A DNA stretch of 64,000 nt, taken from assembly GCA_023250955.1 (NCBI GenBank), contig JAHEZQ010000006.1, positions 186,001-250,000 of the forward strand, read 5' to 3'. This document shows positions 835 through 12,996 of the stretch, piece by piece. This DNA comes from Melioribacter sp. GTDB taxonomy: Bacteria; Bacteroidota; Ignavibacteria; Ignavibacteriales; Melioribacteraceae. Made by a program: the position numbers and the translations under genes. The notes beneath the pieces were generated by a model, which saw only the letters and a program-made list of their open reading frames with translations, had not been told where the DNA came from and ran no database searches. Within the stretch, counting starts at the first letter, position 1; the number at the start of each line of letters is the position of its first letter.

Positions 835-2202
835 TTATTTAGATAAAATTATATACTGATAAGGAGAAAGGGTTAATTCTGTTCCTGTCGTATAATTTGA
901 GTTATCAATAAGATTTGTCCAAGTAATATTCTGAAGCGAAGCATTTAGCTGAAACGTTTGCGTTGTTCTTCGCGTATTGATCAAGACTAAACAGTCTCTG
1001 GATTGATACGATTTTGTAAAGGCCACAATATTCACATCAGAAAAATCTGTGATGGCTCCTTTTTTCAATACAGAGTTAGAATTGTAAAGAGAAAAAAGCT
1101 TTTTGTAAGCAACTTTCATATCAGGATTAATATTCCAGTTTATTGGACTACGACTGAAAAATGGAAGCTTGGTCGGGTAGCCTATTTCCTGTCCGCAGTA
1201 TATAAGAGGGGCTCCGCCCATAAATATTGCGGCAACTGATGCAGCCAAAGCCCCCTGCTTTCCATTAAATATTACGACAGGAGGATTGTCCCAGGCAGAT
1301 TCATCGTGGTTTGTTGTAAACCTAAGTTTGTAACCGTTAGTTATACTTCTGTATTCATTTTGATGAGTAGTAAAAAGGTAAGAAGCATTATAGCCATCTC
1401 GGAAAACATTTTTGAGCATTGAATAATAATCCCAAGCATAATTAAGCTGAAAGCCTGCGGTAAAGTGATCGCTTCTGCTTCCTTCTGCTAACAAGATCAA
1501 TTTTTTATTTGGGATATTTTTGAGTGTATCAAGAGCTTGTTTCCAAAAAGAAAATGGAACATAGTCTGCAGCATCGCATCTGAATCCGTCCACACCAATA
1601 TCTTTAGCCCAATATTTCATTGCGCTTATCATTGCTAAACGCATTTCGGAATTATTGTAATTAAGATCTGCAACATCATTCCACCCGGTTCCCGCTGGAG
1701 AAATAATATTTCCGTTTCCGTCCTGCGTGTACCAGCTTTTATTCACAATCCAAGGATTATCCCAAGCGGTATGATTAGCAACCCAATCTAATACTATAGA
1801 TATTCCAAGATTGTGCGCTTTACTTATTAAATTTTTCAGATCATCCAAAGAACCAAATTCTGGATTTACAGTTAAGTAGTTTTGAACCGAGTAAGGAGAA
1901 CCAAGCTGTCCAACTGATTTAATGGCTCCAACAGGATGTATTGGCATTAGCCAAATAACATTTACACCTAAAGCTTTAATCGAATCAAGTCGGGCTGTAA
2001 TTCCATTAAATGTACCTTCGTTACTAAATGCTCGGAGATTTATTTCGTACATCACAATATCTTCTGTATTTGGAACAATGGAATTGAACGAAGGATTCTC
2101 GATCGGTTGAATAAGATCGTTATTTTTACAGCCGTTGAATGAAAAAACAGTAAAGAGAAATACAATCAAAATATATTTAGGAAAGAGTTTAATTGTTTGC
2201 AT
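835..2202 (-). CDS. Lipoprotein alpha-amylase family glycosidase (GH13)
   Basis: 455 residues. The N-terminus has a signal peptide ending in a lipobox-like FNGC at about residue 25, so the enzyme is probably anchored to a membrane facing the periplasm or outside. The GH13 TIM-barrel regions are in order: DWVANHTAWDN (region I, residues ~140), GFRCDAADYVP (region II, with the nucleophile Asp, ~205), LLAEGS (region III, with the acid/base Glu, ~240) and FTTNHDESAW (region IV, ~295). A short beta domain closes the C-terminus. The catalytic triad Asp/Glu/Asp is complete, so it should be active on alpha-1,4/1,6-glucans or maltooligosaccharides; exact specificity cannot be read from the sequence. 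It contrasts with the signal-less GH13 at 11512-12996. Confidence 0.9.
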   Translation of the reverse strand: MQTIKLFPKYILIVFLFTVFSFNGCKNNDLIQPIENPSFNSIVPNTEDIVMYEINLRAFSNEGTFNGITARLDSIKALGVNVIWLMPIHPVGAIKSVGQLGSPYSVQNYLTVNPEFGSLDDLKNLISKAHNLGISIVLDWVANHTAWDNPWIVNKSWYTQDGNGNIISPAGTGWNDVADLNYNNSEMRLAMISAMKYWAKDIGVDGFRCDAADYVPFSFWKQALDTLKNIPNKKLILLAEGSRSDHFTAGFQLNYAWDYYSMLKNVFRDGYNASYLFTTHQNEYRSITNGYKLRFTTNHDESAWDNPPVVIFNGKQGALAASVAAIFMGGAPLIYCGQEIGYPTKLPFFSRSPINWNINPDMKVAYKKLFSLYNSNSVLKKGAITDFSDVNIVAFTKSYQSRDCLVLINTRRTTQTFQLNASLQNITWTNLIDNSNYTTGTELTLSPYQYIILSK

Positions 2203-3003: not shown

Positions 3004-4689
3004 TTAAATTAGTTCTTTGAGAATAGAATTTAATTGGGTTAGTTCTACAACTTTCTTCTCGCCGGTTTTTCTGTTTTTCACTTCAACTTTTCCATCTTTC
3101 AAATTTTTCTCGCCTACAATTAATTGAATCGGCATACCCAATAAATCTGCATCATTAAATTTGAATCCCGCGCTTGCTTCGAGACGGTCATCAAACAGAA
3201 CCTCATAACCTTCTGCGATTAAATCAATGTAAAGTTTTTCGCAAGCTTTGGAAACCATCTCGTTTTTCATATTCAATCCAATCAAATGAATATCGAATGG
3301 ATTGAGCGGTTTTTTCCAAATGATTCCTTTCTCATCATAATTCTGCTCAAGGAAGCACGCAAAAATTCTTTCAACACCAATTCCGTAACTTCCCATCACT
3401 ATCGGGCGTTCTTTCCCGTTTTCATCAAGATAAAGAACACCGAGTGCATCGGAATACTTTGTACCGAGTTTAAAAATATGTCCAAGCTCGATTGCCTTGA
3501 ACACATCTAATGTTGAACCGCATCGGATACATTTCTCTCCGTTCTCTGCCGTGCGCAGATCAAAGTATTCACATTTAGAAACATCACGCCTCAAATCTAT
3601 TCCGCCAATATGAAAATCATTTTTGTTTGCACCACTGTAAAGATTATTTCCATCCTTCAAAAGATTATCTGCAATAATTCTATGTGGAAAATCTATCGGA
3701 CCAATTGAACCGGCATCCGCACCGGAAATCTCTTTCAATTCTTCTGGATGAGCAGGACGAACATTTCCGCCAAGTACATTACCGAGTTTTGTTTCATTCA
3801 CTTCATCGTTGCCAAGCATTAATACAAGAATCGGTTTAGCATCATGAATATAAATTCTTGATTTAGCAGTTTCGTGTTCATCGATTTTTAAGAATGTACA
3901 AAGTTCATCTATTGAATGAACATTCGGTGTTGATATCTCAAAAAGTTTTTTTGATTCTTTTTGATGTGGAATCAATGCAGCAACAGATTGAGCAACTTCT
4001 GCGTTGGCAGCATATCCGCATTTCTCGCAGTAAGCAACAGTATCTTCACCGGCATCGCTCTTAACCATAAACTCTTCAGATTTACTTCCGCCCATTGCGC
4101 CGCTTGATGCACCTACAACAAAATATCTTAACCCGCAGCGGTCAAAAATTGCGCGGTAAGCTTTATCGTGTAGAGCATAGCCGACATCCAAACCGGCATC
4201 ATCACGGTCGAGTGTGTACGCATCCTTCATAATAAATTGTCTTCCGCGTATAACTCCGCTTCTTGGACGCGGTTCATTTCTAAACTTGGTTTGTATCTGA
4301 TACCAGATCTGCGGCAAGTCTTTGTAAGATGCAATAGCACCTTTAGCATGATACGCGACTATTTCTTCGTGCGTTGGAGCTAAAACATATTCACGGTTCT
4401 TAATATGAAAAAGAATATCTCCGAATGCTTCAACTCTTCCTGTCTGTTCCCAAATTTCTTTTGGATTTAATCCCGGAAAATGAAATTCCTGTCCGCCGAT
4501 TGCATTCATCTCCTCGCGGATGATATCAATTATTTTTCTTATAACTTTATAACCAAGCGGCAGCCACGAATAGATTCCGGCTGATAATTGTCTTACTAAT
4601 CCGGCACGGATCATTAAAATATGGCTTTGAATTACCGCATCATTCGGTACTTCTTTTAAGGTCGGAATAAATGATCTACTTACTCTCAT
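3004..4689 (-). CDS. proS: Prolyl-tRNA synthetase, bacterial type with editing domain
   Basis: 561 residues, the length of bacterial-type ProRS. It charges tRNA-Pro with proline in the cytoplasm. Class II motifs are present: motif 2 as FRNEPRPRSGVIRGRQF (residues ~137-153) with the TxE-type APTHEE loop just before it, and motif 3 as GSYGIGVERI (~445). Between motifs 2 and 3 lies the inserted YbaK-like editing domain (roughly 230-390), which deacylates Ala-tRNA-Pro. The anticodon-binding domain forms the C-terminus. No clear ribosome binding site precedes the ATG at 4689, as often in this lineage. Confidence 0.97.
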   Translation of the reverse strand: MRVSRSFIPTLKEVPNDAVIQSHILMIRAGLVRQLSAGIYSWLPLGYKVIRKIIDIIREEMNAIGGQEFHFPGLNPKEIWEQTGRVEAFGDILFHIKNREYVLAPTHEEIVAYHAKGAIASYKDLPQIWYQIQTKFRNEPRPRSGVIRGRQFIMKDAYTLDRDDAGLDVGYALHDKAYRAIFDRCGLRYFVVGASSGAMGGSKSEEFMVKSDAGEDTVAYCEKCGYAANAEVAQSVAALIPHQKESKKLFEISTPNVHSIDELCTFLKIDEHETAKSRIYIHDAKPILVLMLGNDEVNETKLGNVLGGNVRPAHPEELKEISGADAGSIGPIDFPHRIIADNLLKDGNNLYSGANKNDFHIGGIDLRRDVSKCEYFDLRTAENGEKCIRCGSTLDVFKAIELGHIFKLGTKYSDALGVLYLDENGKERPIVMGSYGIGVERIFACFLEQNYDEKGIIWKKPLNPFDIHLIGLNMKNEMVSKACEKLYIDLIAEGYEVLFDDRLEASAGFKFNDADLLGMPIQLIVGEKNLKDGKVEVKNRKTGEKKVVELTQLNSILKELI

Positions 4690-4872
4690 TACATTATTGT
4701 TTTTGTTAGAAAATTATGGACAAAGATAAGAAATGAACGTGCGATATGAAAAATTTTATAAAAAGATTTTCTGTCCAAGTAGAAAAATAAATTTAATTGT
4801 AATTTATGTTATGGTTCACTATGTTGAAGTGGGAAACAAAATAAACCGCAAACAAACCTTATAGGGGGAACT

Positions 4873-6048
4873 ATGAAAGAGGTCGGCAGTAAATCAATCC
4901 ATTTTTTTACTTACTTCTTAACAGCTTCTTTAGTAATTCTAATTTTTAATTTCTGTGCAGAGAAAAAACCAACAGAACCAAATGAGTTACAAACAAAAAC
5001 AATTTTATCTAAACTTGGAGGAGCTAGATCAGAGTTAAACCTTAGCGCTGATTCAACGAAAACAAAAGATAAAGACAAGAAAAAAGGAGGCGGAGGTATT
5101 GGACCCAATCTCCCTGATTGTAACCTACCACTAGAAAAATATTATTGGGAACTTGAAAAATATATTCCAGTAGAAGGGAAAAGACTTGGTATATGGTTCC
5201 ATGAAGATTATTGGAATAATGAATTTCTTAATCGTATAAGGAACTTTTACGGATTCTCTTTACTAGCTGTAACTTGGCCTTCCGATAATAATCCTCCATC
5301 AAATATGATAAATAGAATCTCATTGTGTGAATCTGTTGGATTTTACAAGAGTACAGATTTAATGGAAATAATTGATAGCAAAAATAATATTTGGGTAACT
5401 CACCCTGCAATAAGAGATTTTTCTTTACATTATACTGACGAACCTCTTGATAGGGAACAAAGCTCAGACAGATGGTCTGTTCAAGATCTTGTTACTGTCT
5501 CAAATAGCATTTTGGGGCAAAATCCTACAGCAAAGTTCCTTGTCGGTACCCCCAAAAATCAATATACTGTATTTGGAAATACTTTACCAGATTATCGTAG
5601 CTTTATTAATCAAACAATAAATTCTTTTATAATGTATACAGATTACGAAAGTGGGGCTTTCAACAATATTAATGATCAAAGTAGTTGTTGGACTTATTTT
5701 GATAACTACTTTGGGAATAACCGAGTTATCACTCAATGGATAGGTCTCGAAGAAGATTATCATGGTATTGGGGATATTGAATATGGTAATTTACTTGGAA
5801 TAGCAAATGATCACGGATATAATCAAATATGGTTGTATGCTGCAGGAACTCATAATATTGATAGAATTGACATCTATTGTGGTTATGCTTTCCAAAAGAG
5901 ATGGTTGAAAAGATTTGAAAGACAATATATTTACACATATACATGCTTTAAACCAAATCCATGTGATTGCGATAGAAATAACTTAACTGATGGTTGGTCT
6001 CTACCTACAAAAACCCCCACTCAAAACACTAGAATTGTTACTTATTAA
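4873..6048 (+). CDS. Putative lipoprotein of unknown function (possible TIM-barrel)
   Basis: 391 residues, not recognised. A hydrophobic N-terminal segment ends in FNFCAEKK, a lipobox-like Cys at about residue 28. A low-complexity Lys/Gly linker (DKDKKKGGGG, ~68-77) follows. The body is rich in aromatic residues, with WFHEDYW, VTWPSDN and HYTDEPLD; the YTDEP pattern on a likely beta-strand end resembles the strand ends of glycosidase-like TIM barrels, but I cannot name a family. The C-terminus has paired cysteines (CFKPNPCDCD). AGGGGG six bases before the ATG is the strongest ribosome binding site in this part of the window. It heads a plus-strand run with four small barrel-like proteins, so a surface role is inferred. 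Confidence 0.6.
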   Translation: MKEVGSKSIHFFTYFLTASLVILIFNFCAEKKPTEPNELQTKTILSKLGGARSELNLSADSTKTKDKDKKKGGGGIGPNLPDCNLPLEKYYWELEKYIPVEGKRLGIWFHEDYWNNEFLNRIRNFYGFSLLAVTWPSDNNPPSNMINRISLCESVGFYKSTDLMEIIDSKNNIWVTHPAIRDFSLHYTDEPLDREQSSDRWSVQDLVTVSNSILGQNPTAKFLVGTPKNQYTVFGNTLPDYRSFINQTINSFIMYTDYESGAFNNINDQSSCWTYFDNYFGNNRVITQWIGLEEDYHGIGDIEYGNLLGIANDHGYNQIWLYAAGTHNIDRIDIYCGYAFQKRWLKRFERQYIYTYTCFKPNPCDCDRNNLTDGWSLPTKTPTQNTRIVTY

Positions 6049-6064
6049 TAAATTGAGAAATAAT

Positions 6065-6628
6065 ATGAGAAATGGTATATATATTTTAACATTAACAGTC
6101 TTGTTCAATATTAATTTAATAGCGCAGTCATCGTTTGGATTTAGATATGAATTGTACAATCTGAACTATCATATATCATCAAATTCTGTTAATAACGAGA
6201 GTAGTGATTATAATGAAGTGTTTCCCTTCAGTTTTTATCTCTCATTATCACATCAATTTGATAATAAATTTACAATAACAGTAAGACCCGGAATATTATT
6301 AGCGTGGGGTCTATCACAATACAATGGACTTGAATTAAGTCTCTGTGCGAAATATAATATATCTGATAACTTCTACGCTCTGGTCGGTTTAAATCTTCAC
6401 GACAATTGGTACAAAATTGCACATAGCAATACAAAATATCCTGAAGAAGGATTATTCCAATTATTTCTTGTCGGAGGTGGATTTAAATTATTAAACGTCG
6501 CTTCAGTAGAATTGCAGTTCCTCTATCCATTCAAAAAACATTTTGGTAATTATTTTAATAATTATTTCAACCCCATTGATATGAATTATATTATAAAATT
6601 AGGAGTCGGTCTTGAATGGGAATTGTAG
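6065..6628 (+). CDS. Small outer-membrane beta-barrel-like protein, paralogue 1
   Basis: 188 residues. The chosen ATG (6065) is followed by a signal peptide ending at LIAQ-SSFG; the frame is open 25 codons further upstream, but that part lacks signal-peptide character and overlaps the preceding gene. The mature part alternates short amphipathic strands and turns and ends in IKLGVGLEWEL, a terminal beta-strand typical of outer-membrane barrels. It shares a layout with the next three genes: FRYE-like opening strand, a VRPGI strand in the middle, an FYALVGLN strand, and a final K/ILGLGLxW strand. Function unknown; a small eight- to ten-stranded barrel is inferred. Confidence 0.6.
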   Translation: MRNGIYILTLTVLFNINLIAQSSFGFRYELYNLNYHISSNSVNNESSDYNEVFPFSFYLSLSHQFDNKFTITVRPGILLAWGLSQYNGLELSLCAKYNISDNFYALVGLNLHDNWYKIAHSNTKYPEEGLFQLFLVGGGFKLLNVASVELQFLYPFKKHFGNYFNNYFNPIDMNYIIKLGVGLEWEL

Positions 6629-6637
6629 TTAAGATGC

Positions 6638-6703
6638 TTAAGGGATGAGCAATCAGCCCTTACTTTGATTTTTGAGAATACCACGGGTAAGTAGGAAACG
6701 ACA
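6638..6703 (+). repeat. Duplicated leader, copy 1
   Basis: About 66 bases between the stop of paralogue 1 and the start of paralogue 2, nearly identical to 7248-7314. The last part (TTTTTGAGAATACCACGGGT and onwards to GGAAACGACA) is identical in both copies and sits 3-4 bases before each ATG, so it includes the translation start region and possibly a shared promoter or RNA element. Confidence 0.75.
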
Positions 6704-6706
6704 TCC

Positions 6707-7246
6707 ATGAAAACAAAAACATTTTTTATACTCTTTTGCTTATGTATTTCTTCAAGAGTATCATCTCAAGTGTTGCTTGGTATTAACTATGAGCCGTTTC
6801 ATCTTTCTGCAGATATTGGAAGAGGTGAGATATCACCATATAGCATCTCTGTATTGTTAGAATATAAGTTCGACTCTACAAAATCTATTTGTTTTAGACC
6901 GGGTTTTTTAGCTAATGATCTGGATGGAAGATATTTTGCCGGTTTCAATTTTTCACTGCTAGGTAAATATCAATTTGATAACTCCTTTTACATCTTAACA
7001 GGATTCAATCTTCATAACAATAACGGAACAAGTTCTGGGTTTACTAAATCAAAAAATTGCCTAATTACATTTTGGGGATTGGGATTTGGATTTAAACCTT
7101 TATCATGGCTTCACATCGAAAATCTTTTTCTCCTGCCAATAAATAATAAAGATATTGCTAATGTTCAGTATTCTAATGGTAGTTTTGGTTCTTATAAAAT
7201 TTATTATTTAATTAAGCTCAGTTTAGGTTTTGAATTAGAATTGTAA
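6707..7246 (+). CDS. Small outer-membrane beta-barrel-like protein, paralogue 2
   Basis: 179 residues with signal peptide (MKTKTFFILFCLC.., cleavage near SSQ-VLLG). The mature chain has the family pattern: GINYEP opening strand, FRPGF strand at about residue 65, FYILTGFNLH strand at about 103, GLGFGFKPLSW and a final IKLSLGFELEL strand. FxLxGxNxHxN and terminal LGxxLxL recur in all four paralogues. The gene is preceded by leader copy 1 and followed by leader copy 2. No function can be assigned; the outer-membrane location is inferred from signal peptide and strand pattern. Confidence 0.6.
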   Translation: MKTKTFFILFCLCISSRVSSQVLLGINYEPFHLSADIGRGEISPYSISVLLEYKFDSTKSICFRPGFLANDLDGRYFAGFNFSLLGKYQFDNSFYILTGFNLHNNNGTSSGFTKSKNCLITFWGLGFGFKPLSWLHIENLFLLPINNKDIANVQYSNGSFGSYKIYYLIKLSLGFELEL

Positions 7247-7247
7247 A

Positions 7248-7314
7248 CTTAAGGGCTGAGCAGTCAGTCCATACTTTGGTTTTTGAGAATACCACGGGTA
7301 AGTAGGAAACGACA
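7248..7314 (+). repeat. Duplicated leader, copy 2
   Basis: Near-identical to 6638-6703: CTTAAGGG.TGAGCA.TCAG at the 5' end and an uninterrupted identical core from TTTTTGAGAATACC to GGAAACGACA at the 3' end. It again ends a few bases before a MKTK start codon, so the duplication unit was leader plus gene. Confidence 0.75.
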
Positions 7315-7317
7315 ATT

Positions 7318-7875
7318 ATGAAAACAAAAATACTTTTTCTGTTTACTTGTTTAATATTTACATCAGAGGTTTATTCACAGTCACTTAAAATCGGTCTTCG
7401 TTATGAACCGGGTATACTGCTTACCGAACAAAATTCAATTAAGGAAGTTGTACCGGTTTTATTCTGCATAGCATCTAATATAACTTTTGAACCCAATTCG
7501 TGGTCTGGTTTAATAATTCGTCCGGGAATAACTTTTATTGACGAACAATATTCCGGTTATGAAATCGGTGCATTTATAAAACTAAAATTATTCTCCTCAA
7601 AGTTTTACTTCGTCACCGGAATAAATAATCATTCTAATAAAGCGACTGGGCATAATAGTGCTGGTGGTTATGGAAAAGAAATGTTATTTGTAAGTGTAGG
7701 TTTAGGTTTTCAATCTGATTCAAAATTCGGAATTGATATTTGTTATTACTGGACAAATGATAAAGAATATGGATATGCAAAACTAACAGATGGTTTAACT
7801 TATTCCAGATTTATAAATAGGCAAATGAATGGGATTCTGAAATTAGGACTAAATCTTTCATGGGACATTTTTTAG
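7318..7875 (+). CDS. Small outer-membrane beta-barrel-like protein, paralogue 3
   Basis: 185 residues. Signal peptide MKTKILFLFTCLIF.. with cleavage near YSQ-SLKIG. Family strands: LKIGLRYEPGIL, IIRPGITF (~residue 65), FYFVTGINNHSN (~100), VSVGLGFQSDSKFGIDICYYW (~135-155) and terminal LKLGLNLSWDIF. It begins with the same MKTK as paralogue 2 behind the same leader, and its mature part is closest to paralogue 4 (RPGI.., GxGFQxDS, and a final SWDI/AWDI strand). Function unknown. Confidence 0.6.
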   Translation: MKTKILFLFTCLIFTSEVYSQSLKIGLRYEPGILLTEQNSIKEVVPVLFCIASNITFEPNSWSGLIIRPGITFIDEQYSGYEIGAFIKLKLFSSKFYFVTGINNHSNKATGHNSAGGYGKEMLFVSVGLGFQSDSKFGIDICYYWTNDKEYGYAKLTDGLTYSRFINRQMNGILKLGLNLSWDIF

Positions 7876-7913
7876 ATATACAATTCCAACTGGTTATTGC
7901 GTGGAATACTTAC

Positions 7914-8402
7914 ATGAAGAAATTTACATTTATTGTTTTGTCGTTAGTTTTATTAACTACAAGTGTAAGCATTCAAGCCCAATCACTAAAACTTGGTTTC
8001 GGCGCTGCACCATCGTTGCTTTTCTACAATAATAAAAAAGAATCTTCAATTTCATTTATACCGTATAGTGCAAATCTAAAAATATTAGTTGCGCCTTTAA
8101 ATTGGTTGAATCTTGAGGTACGCCCAGGAATATTTTTTGGGGGTGAGGATTATAGCTGGATTGAGTTTGGAGGATATGCCCGATTAAATATTCTTCCAAC
8201 AAGGTTTTATATAATTGTAGGTGTAAATGATCACATTAGAGGTGGTTATGATGATATTCTTTATAATGGAGTAGGAATTGGATTCCAGAAGGATTCAATT
8301 GCTAGTTTTGATCTTATCTTCTATTGGAAGACTTTTAAAAATAATGAACGAATAAATGGGATACTAAAAATAGATATTAGTTTCGCATGGGATATTTTAT
8401 GA
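7914..8402 (+). CDS. Small outer-membrane beta-barrel-like protein, paralogue 4
   Basis: 163 residues from the ATG at 7914 (MKKFTFIVLSLVLL.., cleavage near QAQ-SLKLGFG). The frame is open 18 codons upstream, but that part overlaps paralogue 3 and lacks signal character. Strands match paralogue 3: LKLGFGAAPSLLF, LEVRPGIFFG, FYIIVGVNDH, GIGFQKDS and terminal LKIDISFAWDIL. No copy of the leader precedes it, only a 38-base gap. Fourteen bases of leader copy 1 (AATCAGCCCTTACT) reappear after its stop at 8424-8437, perhaps a remnant of another duplication. Confidence 0.6.
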   Translation: MKKFTFIVLSLVLLTTSVSIQAQSLKLGFGAAPSLLFYNNKKESSISFIPYSANLKILVAPLNWLNLEVRPGIFFGGEDYSWIEFGGYARLNILPTRFYIIVGVNDHIRGGYDDILYNGVGIGFQKDSIASFDLIFYWKTFKNNERINGILKIDISFAWDIL

Positions 8403-8529
8403 ACATTTATTTAGAATAATAGAAATCAGCCCTTACTATTTACTACAAATCTTTTCTCCAGTAATTTCAGACAAATCTTTTTCTGCTTATCTTTGAAAGG
8501 AAGAAATGACAAATGGCAAGGTATAACCA

Positions 8530-9369
8530 ATGACAGATTTTGATCCTGTAACTCAAGATAATCCTAAAGCAGATTCGAAATTTCCGGCTTCATTATCCCC
8601 CGCAGTTTTTATTAGCGGTGGATCAAAAGTTTTGGGAACAATGTTTATTACTTCCGGCGATGGGCTACATCCAACTGTATTGCTCTTAACAGGTTTCCCC
8701 GGAAATGAAGTGAATTTCGATATTGCACATATGCTTCAACGTCAAGGATTTAATGTATTCACGTTTTACAGCCGCGGTTCTTGGGGAAGCGAGGGCGAAT
8801 TTTCCTGGAATAATCTTATTGAAGATATACCAGCGGCAATAACATTTTTAAAAGATGATTTATGTAGAGAAAACTTTCATGTAGATAAAAATAAAATTGT
8901 GTTTGTTGGTTATAGCATGGGTGGTTTCTCGGCTTTCTTTAATTCAATTCAATTTGATGATATAAAAAATATTTGTGCGATTGCACCGTTTAACATGGGA
9001 ATGTTCGGACAATTATTAACAATGAATGAAGAAATAAAAAATATCACCACAGAAAGAATGCTGCGGGCAAAAGATTTTATAAACTGTCCCTCTCCGGAAA
9101 AACTTTATGATGAAATGATCCTTCATAAAACTGATTGGAATCTTATTAATCACACTGAGAAACTATCTAAGAAAAATCTTCTTATAATTAGTGCAGCACA
9201 TGATACAACCGCACCGGTAGAATTACATCATAAACCCTTGGTTGGTGCACTCAAACTCGCTAACTCCGATGTTAAAGAGTTTATACTCGATACCGGTCAT
9301 TCGTTTTCCGATAAACGGATTCAACTGATGAGATTGATTTCCGATTGGATAAGCAAAATTAAATTTTAA
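8530..9369 (+). CDS. Alpha/beta hydrolase
   Basis: 279 residues without signal peptide. The nucleophile elbow GYSMGG is at about residue 128, an acidic position in ISAAHDTTAP at about 223, and the catalytic His in DTGHSFS at about 257, giving a complete Ser-Asp-His triad. The oxyanion region is the LLTGFPGNE loop (~residue 55), and a YSRGSWGSEGEFSW segment follows as in the dienelactone hydrolase/prolyl-oligopeptidase-like esterases. A lipase, esterase or peptidase cannot be distinguished. The PLP decarboxylase starts 15 bases downstream, so the two are probably co-transcribed. Confidence 0.85.
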   Translation: MTDFDPVTQDNPKADSKFPASLSPAVFISGGSKVLGTMFITSGDGLHPTVLLLTGFPGNEVNFDIAHMLQRQGFNVFTFYSRGSWGSEGEFSWNNLIEDIPAAITFLKDDLCRENFHVDKNKIVFVGYSMGGFSAFFNSIQFDDIKNICAIAPFNMGMFGQLLTMNEEIKNITTERMLRAKDFINCPSPEKLYDEMILHKTDWNLINHTEKLSKKNLLIISAAHDTTAPVELHHKPLVGALKLANSDVKEFILDTGHSFSDKRIQLMRLISDWISKIKF

Positions 9370-9384
9370 GGAAAGTGTAAGATC

Positions 9385-10836
9385 ATGATCAAGAGCAAGA
9401 ATTATGGTGATATGCCGGCAGAAGAATTTAAAAAATACGGCTATGAATTAATTGATTGGGTTACAAACTATTTAGAAAATGTAGCTTCCTTCCCCGTTCT
9501 GCCAAACGTTAAACCCGGTGATGTGAAAAACAAATTACCAAATCATGCACCGCAATCCGGCGAATCGATAAATAAAATTATTGAGGACCTAAATAAAATT
9601 ATTTTACCGGCTACAACTCACTGGCAGCATCCGAACTTTATGGCGTATTTCAATTCAACAGCAAGCGGACCGGGAATTTTTGGAGAACTAATCAGCGCAG
9701 CATTAAATGTTAACTCAATGCTTTGGAAATCAGCTCCTGCATCAACCGAACTTGAAGAAACAGTGTTAAACTGGTTCAGAGAAATAATTAATCTTCCAAA
9801 AGAATTTTGGGGAATCATTTACGATACCGCTTCGGTAAGTTCTATGCATGCAATTGCCGCAGCACGCGAGAATGCCGGATTTGATATTCGTAAAAAAGGA
9901 ATGAGCGGTGTTCCTAAACTGCGTTTGTATAGCTCGGAACAAGCACATAATTCAATAGATAAAGGGGCGCTAACACTCGGCATCGGTTTGGACGGAATTA
10001 GAAAAATTCCGGTAGATTCGGAATTTAGAATGATTCCATCAGAGTTAGAGAAAGTGATTAAAGAAGATCGTGCAAATGGAATTGTTCCATTCTGTGTTGT
10101 TGCAACAATTGGAACAACATCAACAACAAGTGTTGATCCTGTTGAAGAGATAGCTAAAATATGTACACGGGAAAAAATTTGGCTTCATATTGATGCCGCA
10201 CATGCCGGCGTGACTGCAATGCTGCCCGAAATGAAAAAACACTTTAAGGGTGTTGAACATGCCGATTCGTTTGTTGTTAATCCGCACAAGTGGCTTTTTG
10301 TACCGATTGATCTAAGTATCCTATATACGCGCAAACCGGAAGTTCTTAAGCGAGCATTTTCACTTACTGCAGAATATTTGAAGACTGCAGAAGATTCAGC
10401 TGTGAATAATCATATGGATTATGGAATACAGCTAGGACGTAGATTCAGATCATTAAAATTCTGGTTTGTACTGCGTTACTTTGGTGTTGAGGGATTACAA
10501 TCAAGATTAAGAGAGCATATTCGTCTCGGACAGCTATTTGCAAAATGGATTGAAGAACATCCTCAATTTGAAAGAGTTGCACCAACACCATTCAGTACTG
10601 TTTGTTTTAGAGCGAAACCAACCGGTCGGAATGATGAAGCTAAAATCAATGCACTAAACGAAAAATTGTTGAACGACGTAAACGCAACCGGAAAAGTTTT
10701 TATTACTCATACAAAATTGAACGGAATATTTACAATAAGATTAGTCATTTCGGGATTACGTACCGAAGAGAAACACGTTATACTGGCTTGGAATGTAATT
10801 CAAGATACATTTCAAAAAATTTTGAATGAAGGTTAA
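9385..10836 (+). CDS. Pyridoxal-dependent decarboxylase (aromatic-L-amino-acid decarboxylase family, group II)
   Basis: 483 residues, the length of the AADC/tyrosine-tryptophan decarboxylase family. N-terminal MPAEEFKKYGYELIDWV and TTHWQHPNFMAYF are the family's opening motifs; HIDAAHAG (~residue 270) has the PLP-binding Asp and NPHKW (~305) the Schiff-base Lys. The C-terminal RFRSLKFWFVLRYFGVEGL is also characteristic. Expected reaction: decarboxylation of an aromatic L-amino acid to the amine, though some members act as aldehyde synthases or on other substrates. Preceded by an alpha/beta hydrolase and followed after 5 bases by marC, suggesting a three-gene operon. Confidence 0.88.
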   Translation: MIKSKNYGDMPAEEFKKYGYELIDWVTNYLENVASFPVLPNVKPGDVKNKLPNHAPQSGESINKIIEDLNKIILPATTHWQHPNFMAYFNSTASGPGIFGELISAALNVNSMLWKSAPASTELEETVLNWFREIINLPKEFWGIIYDTASVSSMHAIAAARENAGFDIRKKGMSGVPKLRLYSSEQAHNSIDKGALTLGIGLDGIRKIPVDSEFRMIPSELEKVIKEDRANGIVPFCVVATIGTTSTTSVDPVEEIAKICTREKIWLHIDAAHAGVTAMLPEMKKHFKGVEHADSFVVNPHKWLFVPIDLSILYTRKPEVLKRAFSLTAEYLKTAEDSAVNNHMDYGIQLGRRFRSLKFWFVLRYFGVEGLQSRLREHIRLGQLFAKWIEEHPQFERVAPTPFSTVCFRAKPTGRNDEAKINALNEKLLNDVNATGKVFITHTKLNGIFTIRLVISGLRTEEKHVILAWNVIQDTFQKILNEG

Positions 10837-11511: not shown

Positions 11512-12996
11512 TCAATAACTAAAAATGTGTGAATGGTAAGGTTTTAATTCAATATACAAACCGCTGTTGTAAACTTCCTCTGCAGAGCGTATATACGATT
11601 GATCATTCAATAAATCCTTTAGTGAAAAATCTTCCTGATAACCGCGCACATCTAGTTTTATTCTGCATGTTGAAATACTATCAGAATAATTTACAATCAC
11701 AAGACGTTTCTCATCCTTAAAAGACCAACCCCACGAAAAAATATTTATAAATGTTGTGTTACTATCCAAAGAAGGTACCGGTTCTAATAGAGTCCACTTA
11801 CCTCTATTAAATATTTCATGTGATATAATCGTTAGTAGTTTATTGTAAAAATATTTTAGCTCAGCATTCGCTTGTTCTTCCGGTTCCCTTCCAAGCTGCA
11901 CAGGAAGCTTTATTTTTTTCCCTTCGAATTGTCCATCATAATAAAAACGCAATCCTTGAATTGTGCTTATAATTACAGCCGCAGCTTTTGATTTCTCTTT
12001 CCCAAAAATTGCTATTGCCCGTTCTTCATCATGATTTTCAATGAACCGTAATGATTTTTTTTGATAATCACTTTCTGCAAGAAGATGATCGTGAATTTCA
12101 TTCACCAGTGCAAATTTTAAACGGTCGGTTAATTTCTTGTCATAGGTAAAATCAAATCCGATTTGTTGAAGATCATATTCAAGATCCCAATATGCTTCTG
12201 CGATAAAAAGAAAATCTGCCCTTTCATTCTTTACTTCCGAAATAGCTTCCGTCCAGAATTCCGACTCATGCTTATCAAAACCGTTTTTACCTAAGATTCC
12301 TCCCCAAGTATTCTTAAAAACATTGTTGAGTAAAAGCATGGACATATCGCAACGGACACCATCGCATATTTTTGATAAGGCAAGTAATGTGTTAATAAGA
12401 AATTTTCTGGCTTCTTTGCTGAAAATATTTACCTGGATAGTATCCTGCCATGCAGGGAAAAAAGGATCTCTTCCATGAGCAAAATATTTTTCTTCATTTT
12501 GAATTGGTTGGTAATACGTATGTGGATCGCGTTTGAAAAGTTCTTTATCAACTGAAAGAAAAATGCCATGATTAGTTTTGATTAATCTGGTGTCAGCACT
12601 AAAATGATTCGGAACAAAATCGAGAATCAGTTTCATTCCCTTTTTATTCAAGCGGGATTTTAATTCCAACAGGGATTTATGATCACCAAGTTCAGGATTG
12701 ATTTCGTAAACATCTATTGCATAAGGTGAACCAATTACATCTTCGGGTTTCCATCCTTTTAACGCACGGTCGTAACTTTTTTTTAATCGCTCTTCAAAAC
12801 AACATTTCTCAATTACCGAATTACACGTTTTCCAGATTCCCATTAACCATATGTAATCAATTCCTTTCTTAGCGAGATCATCCCAATATGAATTAGGAAC
12901 ATCGTTCAAGGTTGATTTGATAATTCCTTGATCGAATCTTCGGAGCCAGACGCGTGTATTAATTTCGTAAAGCGATTGGTGATATAGCATCTTCAA
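11512..12996 (-). CDS. Cytoplasmic alpha-amylase family protein (GH13)
   Basis: 494 residues with no signal peptide. GH13 regions in order: LDFVPNHFSADT (region I), DGVRCDMSMLLL (region II with nucleophile Asp), FIAEAYW (region III with acid/base Glu) and RFIENHDEERA (region IV). The start YHQSLYEINTRVWL is shared with a group of cytosolic GH13 enzymes related to trehalose synthase and glucosyl-/maltosyltransferases. The triad is intact. It probably acts on intracellular maltooligosaccharides or glycogen-derived sugars; substrate not resolvable. It lies 7 bases downstream of dnaG on the same strand, so it may be co-transcribed with it. Confidence 0.85.
   Translation of the reverse strand: MKMLYHQSLYEINTRVWLRRFDQGIIKSTLNDVPNSYWDDLAKKGIDYIWLMGIWKTCNSVIEKCCFEERLKKSYDRALKGWKPEDVIGSPYAIDVYEINPELGDHKSLLELKSRLNKKGMKLILDFVPNHFSADTRLIKTNHGIFLSVDKELFKRDPHTYYQPIQNEEKYFAHGRDPFFPAWQDTIQVNIFSKEARKFLINTLLALSKICDGVRCDMSMLLLNNVFKNTWGGILGKNGFDKHESEFWTEAISEVKNERADFLFIAEAYWDLEYDLQQIGFDFTYDKKLTDRLKFALVNEIHDHLLAESDYQKKSLRFIENHDEERAIAIFGKEKSKAAAVIISTIQGLRFYYDGQFEGKKIKLPVQLGREPEEQANAELKYFYNKLLTIISHEIFNRGKWTLLEPVPSLDSNTTFINIFSWGWSFKDEKRLVIVNYSDSISTCRIKLDVRGYQEDFSLKDLLNDQSYIRSAEEVYNSGLYIELKPYHSHIFSY

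Follow-up and report, generated by a model that had tools for sequence, protein, structure and literature searches.

BSAPs are surface lipoproteins with a C-terminal domain that binds the receptor, as described in the excerpts of PMC12853789 used here, and their genes adjoin a non-targeted ortholog of the target barrel according to the excerpts of PMC4999547. For contact-dependent inhibition (CDI) loci, arrays of orphan 3′ fragments and immunity genes are described in the excerpts of PMC3150448. The immunity strings esaG and tipC of the type VII secretion system consist of non-identical paralogues which recombine through conserved blocks (excerpts of PMC9484751). The subject of the present analysis is a set of five genes, one for a putative lipoprotein and four for small outer-membrane barrels, in a window of 64,000 nucleotides of a Melioribacter sp. 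genome (positions 186001–250000 of contig C22; parent genome G000, 3.26 Mb). Slippage contingency genes of Neisseria, Haemophilus, Campylobacter and others have tracts of poly-C or of four- or eight-nucleotide units, located upstream or within the first codons, and are found in ON and OFF frames. Such switching is best known from host-associated pathogens. The five genes are probably one copy of a two-part surface module, a lipoprotein with a small barrel, and we put the probability that it is a recombining, often phase-variable cassette of the contingency type at roughly 0.55. Recombination within its conserved flanks and seams would carry the module from one relative to another. With an incoming pair, the lipoprotein gene of the older pair would be lost or trimmed to its 3′ tail, and its barrel would be kept downstream. 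One array would hold barrels of several origins because the older barrels stay while their lipoproteins go. In many relatives the lipoprotein would be turned on and off by repeat slippage. The product may be a variable surface layer that counters rival bacteria or phages, in which the lipoprotein would act on surface glycans.

All five open reading frames (ORFs) lie on the + strand at 4873–8402 between proS and an alpha/beta hydrolase gene, as an earlier note on this DNA had stated. The insert, its genes and its flanks are listed in window coordinates.

4757–8462, + strand: whole insert, bounded by comparison with the empty sites of the sister genomes G007 and G008
3004–4689, − strand: proS, conserved neighbour on the left flank
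4863–4869, + strand: Shine-Dalgarno-like sequence AGGGGGA, 5′ of the P0001 ATG
4873–6048, + strand: P0001, lead gene, lipoprotein-like TIM-barrel protein of 391 residues with Cys28 as the presumed lipid anchor
5437–5445, + strand: D189-E190-P191, closing strand 4 of the predicted TIM barrel, from the model and the alignment of relatives
5905–6045, + strand: C-terminal tail of P0001 (residues 345–391), two predicted strands after the TIM barrel, the part surviving alone between barrels in other genomes
6065–6628, + strand: barrel 1, P0002, 187 residues, presumed cognate partner of P0001
6707–7246, + strand: barrel 2, P0003, 179 residues, of a clade common to G003 and G067
7318–7875, + strand: barrel 3, P0004, 185 residues, of a clade accompanying the other lipoprotein type
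7914–8402, + strand: barrel 4, P0005, 162 residues, sharing clade and last position with a barrel of G002 (60% identity)
8530–9369, + strand: alpha/beta hydrolase, right flank

The gap between proS and the hydrolase gene is 151 bases in the sisters G007 and G008. Compared with the window, the homology of this gap stops on the left at about 4756 and restarts on the right at 8463, with 18 bases between the two points in G007. The module therefore forms a clean insert about 3.7 kb long. The proS protein of the window is 94% identical to that of G007, 91.8% to that of G008 and 84.6% to that of G002, and the hydrolases of G007 and G008 are 86% identical to the window's. Among the four closest sisters the site is empty in three, and the contig of the fourth ends at the site; the comparison of sister genomes proposed in the earlier note gave this insert. 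In 16 of the 20 family genomes fetched, proS and the hydrolase gene stand side by side without the module (G007, G008, G011, G004, G091, G092, G065, G066, G006, G010, G005, G001, G068, G078, G018 and G083), some other small gene being inside the gap in G004 and G068. As for the remaining four, G067 has a lipoprotein-start relic and one barrel, the contig ends in G003, and no proS was found beside the hydrolase gene in G016 and G084. G000, G002 and G064 have an occupied site, as does G022 on the hydrolase side (L040, at a contig end). The proS locus carries different gene sets in other genomes. No integrase- or transposase-like ORF of at least 80 residues was seen by eye between proS and the hydrolase gene, and a mobile element with its own recombinase is unsupported for this reason. 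An Rfam scan of the window gave nothing at the gathering thresholds.

Among the four barrels, the structure of P0004 was predicted with AlphaFold2 and a confident barrel was obtained (pLDDT 90.4). Its best structural matches include OmpA, NspA, OprF and OmpW (Z 14.6–15.8). The OmpA model 9a2m gave Z 15.8 with a root-mean-square deviation (rmsd) of 2.8 over 155 aligned residues, and NspA (1p4t) gave Z 15.4, rmsd 3.3 and 144 aligned residues. The P0004 model is a closed 8-stranded barrel of the OmpA/NspA/OmpX kind with a signal peptide; strand count and closure were taken from DSSP and the structural matches, and the signal peptide was read by eye. The barrel fold suggested by the earlier note was thus recovered, and the four sequences can be aligned with one another over 20 invariant columns, including R74-P75-G76, F103-Y104, G108, N110 and H112. 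The proposed RPG and FYxxxGxNxH motifs are invariant, while the proposed final LGLxLxW is variable (GLEWEL, GFELEL, LSWDIF and FAWDIL), and the proposed lengths of 163–188 residues included the stop codon. A profile of the four barrels recovered the four themselves and nothing else in the genome at E <= 1e-50, the next match being at E 0.07, and barrel matches were obtained in 23 of 79 family genomes. No assigned family was recognised, in agreement with the earlier note. In Pfam none of the four matches OMP_b-brl (PF13505) or another barrel model at E <= 1, and OMP_b-brl is matched by 2 of 19 aligned barrel members (best E 5.7e-5). The NCBIfam model of the TDE1717 barrel (NF049866), with a cut-off of 135 bits, gave 15.7 for P0002, 12.9 for P0003 and 17.4 for P0005, and no match for P0004.

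The lipoprotein and the first barrel are co-inherited as a matched pair. Pair and tree analyses were performed with 24 loci hand-picked from those with profile hits. In 20 of these a barrel immediately follows a lipoprotein gene, be it complete, broken or cut by a contig end. The fraction is biased by this choice, and the distance is mostly within about 100 bases; the exceptions are L047, L086, L092 and L132. Loci with diverged barrels below the profile (L086, L089, L094, L097 and L101) or with none (L088 and L090) were read by eye only, and by eye diverged barrel-like genes were seen behind other lipoproteins. A Mantel test with 17 lipoprotein-barrel pairs, in which G038 was represented by the longer fragment of its broken lipoprotein, gave r 0.39 (p 0.0002) for the first barrel and r 0.24 (p 0.018) for the last, a correlation partly confounded with species relatedness. 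In six multi-barrel arrays the values were r 0.60 (p 0.014) for the first barrel and r 0.18 (p 0.13) for the last, and within family f1 only (13 pairs) 0.57 and 0.34. P0002 is closest to the barrel behind the nearest relative of P0001 in G022 (support 0.98). The lipoprotein was called an orphan in the earlier note; instead, it leads the module and is passed on together with the first barrel. Its tail may be in physical contact with that barrel.

Relics of lipoproteins were found inside the arrays. Of the 41 barrels, 6 are immediately preceded by a lipoprotein tail without its body (in G002, G003, G061, G085 and G038); most of these tails have about 40–60 codons, and one is frameshifted. In G003, two tails begin at most about 15 bases after the hairpin AGGGCTGAGCAATCAGCCCT and a T-rich sequence. 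The hairpin is identical after three G003 barrels and recurs with 1–3 differences in the G002 and window arrays. Its 14-base core was searched in 12 genomes of the genus and occurs twice in the G000 array, twice in that of G002 and three times in that of G003. Elsewhere in the 12 genomes it occurs three times, in G005 and G010, each time within a coding ORF, and a genome-wide repeat was rejected on this count. The folding energies of the window's two copies are -10 and -10.9 kcal/mol (z about -1.9), and the two G002 copies have z of about -0.9. The seam features of the window are as follows.

6637–6742, + strand: first copy of the direct repeat, covering the hairpin, the leader and the beginning of the signal peptide, 84% identical to 7248–7353
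7248–7353, + strand: direct repeat copy 2, 106 bp, the repeat spanning the leaders of P0003 and P0004
6639–6662, + strand: hairpin seam element after barrel 1, terminator-like, unflagged by the terminator scan
7253–7270, + strand: hairpin seam element after barrel 2, likewise unflagged by the terminator scan
8421–8437, + strand: degenerate version of the seam element close to the right border

The direct repeat had been missed by the earlier note. P0003 and P0004, which follow its two copies, are 23% identical, and recombination at the hairpin/leader seam would be the simplest cause of a repeat with such divergent barrels behind it. The lipoprotein is broken in its body or cut to its start in four loci, and the profile-matched barrels of these loci are intact in 9 of 9 cases: three in L085 (G064), three in L093 (G061), two in L104 (G038) and one in L132 (G067). 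Other broken lipoproteins were seen in G052, G010, G090 and G098, with no profile-matched barrel in the stretches examined. These counts are suggestive, though not proof, of lipoproteins decaying while barrels persist. The module of G018 is enclosed by direct repeats of 452 bases (92.7%; L041:7389–7839 and 9677–10128), which are made up of a neighbouring gene's end plus the upstream region after it and may have been left by a single-crossover insertion. In G026, of another genus, the G018 barrel occurs alone (87% DNA identity over 670 bases) together with a piece of the G018 neighbouring gene.

The layout can be compared with the systems introduced above. As in the BSAP excerpts (PMC12853789, PMC4999547), a presumed surface lipoprotein stands beside an outer-membrane barrel of variable sequence and is swapped at a fixed locus, and a C-terminal part is tied to partner specificity, here presumably so. 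In contrast to BSAPs, no MACPF domain (PF01823) was found and a TIM barrel is predicted; the receptor of BSAP-1, in the same excerpts, is a predicted 14-stranded FadL-type barrel whereas the barrels here are 8-stranded, and the module has several barrels per array and slippage tracts. In the CDI excerpts (PMC3150448), a full-length gene and its partner gene are likewise followed by 3′ fragments, each with a partner, and modules are exchanged between strains. However, the fragment retained here is a conserved tail of about 40–60 residues and not a toxin domain, and the partners are outer-membrane barrels. P0001 differs further from polymorphic toxins of the CDI/Rhs kind in being a lipoprotein of 391 residues, with no CDI/Rhs family match in Pfam or NCBIfam. 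The strings of non-identical recombining paralogues resemble esaG and tipC as described in the excerpts of PMC9484751, although those are immunity proteins of Firmicutes and not outer-membrane barrels.

These likenesses give some weight to antagonism between bacteria, a tentative reading that overlaps with the contingency cassette and is clearly the less probable of the two. The lipoprotein would be a surface antibacterial protein whose tail recognises a target barrel; the co-encoded barrel would be a resistant replacement or an immunity protein, and orphan barrels would give protection from the lipoproteins of rivals. The receptor-binding C-terminal domain and the adjacent non-targeted barrel ortholog of BSAPs (PMC12853789, PMC4999547, in the excerpts used) and the CDI orphan arrays (PMC3150448, likewise), whose layout matches the order lipoprotein-barrel-tail-barrel seen here, are consistent with it. 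So are the 8 of 23 barrel-bearing family genomes without a lipoprotein match at E <= 1e-5 (G013, G019, G026, G029, G030, G060, G076 and G082), of which G019 has a partial match and G029 is 68% complete. The orphan barrel of G026 (9557–10165) lies inside what we take to be a bacteriocin-like cluster (L179:1989–16858), with genes presumably for double-glycine leader peptides, a peptidase-ABC exporter and a radical-SAM-like protein; this insertion also speaks for antagonism, but it may be chance. On the other hand, no MACPF or toxin family was found in the family scans and the predicted fold is a TIM barrel. MACPF is also absent among the VIA-align structural matches listed for the lipoprotein, which proves nothing alone. 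The OFF copies described below suit surface antigens, and we have no toxin example in hand. A still more specific picture, which we regard as speculative and slightly less probable again, is a phase-variable weapon and shield in Ignavibacteria, in which a switchable lipid-anchored TIM-barrel enzyme would carry a tail recognising small barrels, and a recombining barrel repertoire would mark self and resist rivals or phages.

In the AlphaFold2 model of P0001, a TIM barrel is followed by two additional strands at the C-terminus (pLDDT 75.6 overall, mostly above 70 for residues 83–391). The YTDEP motif and the Lys/Gly linker described earlier are present in the sequence. In clan GH-A glycoside hydrolases, which have a (beta/alpha)8 fold as seen in the P0001 model, the acid/base carboxylate ends strand 4 and the nucleophile ends strand 7. 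Glu190, at the end of predicted strand 4, is conserved in 40 of 40 aligned relatives, and Asp189 and Pro191 are each conserved in 38 of 40. P0001 is a candidate outer-membrane-anchored TIM-barrel protein with a putative glycosidase-like active site. The structural matches single out no enzyme class because they cover TIM barrels generally and include pyruvate kinases at Z up to 16.3; cellulase 5e09 gave Z 15.4 (rmsd 3.2, 222 aligned) and xylanase 2g4f gave Z 15.3 (rmsd 3.5, 238 aligned). In a Pfam scan of nine lipoprotein members, no family was obtained for P0001, two chance-level matches were obtained among the other eight, and no GH family was matched in any. The NCBIfam scan of P0001 gave one chance-level match (E 0.05), and a PDB sequence search found no relative. 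A contig search found no relative with P0001 alone and two loci with three related sequences. Counting a shorter tail-less type, 31 of the 79 family genomes have a relative at E <= 1e-5, and a sample of 294 genomes from the class gave relatives in 33 at E <= 1e-10. P0001 is 56% identical to its closest relative, the G022 lipoprotein on contig C7, and 25% and 29% identical to those of G002 and G003 of the same genus. In G041, two large secreted proteins (L051:4082–10292) have a P0001-type TIM barrel ahead of CARDB domains; CARDB is above the cut-off in them, and dockerin matches are below it.

The module could instead serve nutrition, a surface glycoside hydrolase being paired with a small channel of its own and the arrays widening the range of oligosaccharides taken up. 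This explanation seems unlikely, if less so than the assembly-artefact and tandem-duplication explanations below. It could draw on the DEP motif at strand 4, in keeping with the clan GH-A rule, on the xylanase and the cellulase among the matches, on the G041 relatives with CARDB and sub-threshold dockerin, and on what we take to be a TonB-receptor-like gene preceding the lipoprotein gene in G027 and G063, the only two genomes with this neighbour. Pyruvate kinases score as high as the glycosidases, and to our knowledge uptake loci do not typically show on/off switching or barrel shuffling, which counts against it. The composition also differs from SusCD, which pairs a TonB-dependent barrel with a SusD lipoprotein, whereas the partner here is an 8-stranded barrel and the lipoprotein has no Pfam family.

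The contingency-type cassette is favoured by the tracts at the lipoprotein genes. All genes were examined from -300 to +100 for non-A/T homopolymers of at least 8, at least 5 tetranucleotide units or at least 3 octanucleotide units; ORFs less than 300 bases from the upstream end of a locus were skipped, duplicates were removed and L105 was excluded. Of the 33 tailed lipoproteins examined, 9 have a tract, against 1 of the 41 barrels. Among the 439 other ORFs there are 4 with a tract, each a divergent neighbour sharing that of a lipoprotein. The clustering has p 7.7e-9, or 1.4e-11 without the shared neighbours. The tract-bearing broken lipoprotein of G064 is not among the 33. The 5′ tracts are (TTCA)x5 in G002, (CTCA)x8 in G064, (ATTC)x8 and x6 in G093 and (ACCGCAAT)x6 in G058, and poly-C of C8 to C13 in G020, G055 and G018. 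In the duplicated upstream region of G018, one copy has C9 and the other C10. The start is out of frame with the lipobox (OFF) in G002, G064, G022, G058, G020a and the second G093 copy, and in frame (ON) in the first G093 copy and G020b; the (ATTC)x8 paralogue of G093 is the ON copy and the (ATTC)x6 paralogue is the OFF copy. The G067 lipoprotein has an in-frame stop. In many relatives the lipoprotein gene is probably switched by repeat slippage in its signal-peptide codons or upstream region; the window's copy, in frame and free of tracts, now looks fixed ON. Tract types and ON/OFF frames are the same as in known contingency genes, but the organisms are Ignavibacteria and the genomes environmental. 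Among the full texts searched, no paper combines 'Ignavibacteri' with 'phase variation', and a broader search gave, among the matches listed, other organisms only. An environmental family that combines slippage with horizontal exchange and arrays of orphan partners would point to phages or rivals as sufficient to select such loci on their own. It also offers a precise target: one Pfam-less lipoprotein family with its barrels, at a locus for which empty and occupied sister genomes can be matched.

Two 21-base tetranucleotide tracts were also searched in the 79 genomes and occur in five places, three at these lipoproteins. The other two are at the starts of secreted-looking genes, L183 (G083:C201) and L192 (G076:C56), with long ATTC and CTCA tracts, and the family may have further switchable genes. 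In G061 (L093, about 5620–5700), (TTTACGTC)x10 stands about 430 bases upstream of the broken lipoprotein, beyond the limits of the count.

Assembly artefacts or plain pseudogenes, without phase variation, are improbable as the origin of the tracts and of the out-of-frame copies. The assemblies are mostly metagenome-assembled genomes or drafts and several lipoproteins have stops or frameshifts elsewhere too, as this explanation would have it. Against it, the tracts cluster at one gene family with the p values above, units of 4, 8 and 1 nucleotides stand at the same place, and the G093 paralogues with 8 and 6 units are in different frame states.

The barrel repertoire is shuffled between genomes. 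In a tree of 41 barrels, the arrays of G000, G002, G064, G022, G067 and G003 draw on about six clades in differing order, gene counts being lower bounds where contigs end inside arrays (G003, G022 and G090). Five of these six genomes have at least one array demonstrably at the proS locus; the sixth is G003, whose array contig is unflanked. P0002 groups with G022. P0003 groups with barrel 2 of G003 and the G067 barrel (support 1.0). P0004 groups with barrel 2 of G002 (0.89), barrel 2 of G064 being one node deeper (0.96), and P0005 groups with barrel 4 of G002 (0.999). P0004 and P0005 look like orphans here because their clade accompanies the lipoprotein type of G002 and G085. The duplication and divergence within the window supposed by the earlier note did not hold, as each barrel groups with barrels of other genomes (supports 0.89–1.0), and recent duplication of the four was rejected. 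Plain tandem duplication of outer-membrane proteins followed by drift can be set aside as very improbable: the 84% direct repeat and the in-place duplications seen in the tree for G061, G085 and G038 speak for it, but it is contradicted for the window by these groupings, dS (synonymous divergence) is near saturation at 1.3–1.9 in all seven barrel pairs compared, and the empty site and the lipoprotein swap are left unexplained. In the same pairs dN (nonsynonymous divergence) is 0.27–0.70, which indicates coding constraint within the limits set by near-saturated dS. The lineage-specific surface cassette of the earlier note fits barrels behind a lipoprotein, for which a surface location may be expected.

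Several observations weigh against the recombining, phase-variable cassette, in addition to the relatedness behind the Mantel correlation. Asp295 near strand 7, the candidate second carboxylate, is Asp in just 29 of 40 relatives. The presumed lipid cysteine of P0001 follows Phe-Asn-Phe (FNF-C), an unusual lipobox, the relatives having SNC (G018), TGC (G027) and TSC (G020). The pair is not obligatory because genus g17 (G027, G063 and G062) has no barrel behind the lipoprotein, and in two of these genomes the gene follows the presumed TonB-receptor-like gene instead. The P0001 gene itself has no slippage tract and is in frame. Some OFF copies (G020a and G022) have a later in-frame start, and their silence is presumed only. 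Single tract lengths may be consensus errors in assemblies of this kind. The leader repeat of the window as a decayed lipoprotein tail was rejected, as 102 and 51 of 300 shuffles score as high, while two inter-barrel tails of G003 outscore all 300 shuffles in the same test. Barrels are also found damaged, with fragments in L042, L086 and L091 and inner-stop matches in G082, G076, G013 and G060. Finally, the G003 array contig (3,087 bases; same genus as the window genome) and the G022 contig with the nearest relative of P0001 have no proS-hydrolase flanks.

A few further genes are of note around these loci. A small gene, presumably RidA-like, is present between proS and the hydrolase gene, instead of or beside the module, in L133 (gap 8753–9349) and in the gaps of G004 and G067. 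Proteins which we take to be alpha-amylase-like flank the locus on either side in the window (835–2202 and 11512–12996). A short tail-less paralogue of P0001 is present in three genomes of the genus (L049:6890–7762, L050:6849–7721 and L053:6903–7733), and its neighbours are presumably glycosyltransferase-like genes and a UDP-GlcNAc-epimerase-like gene.

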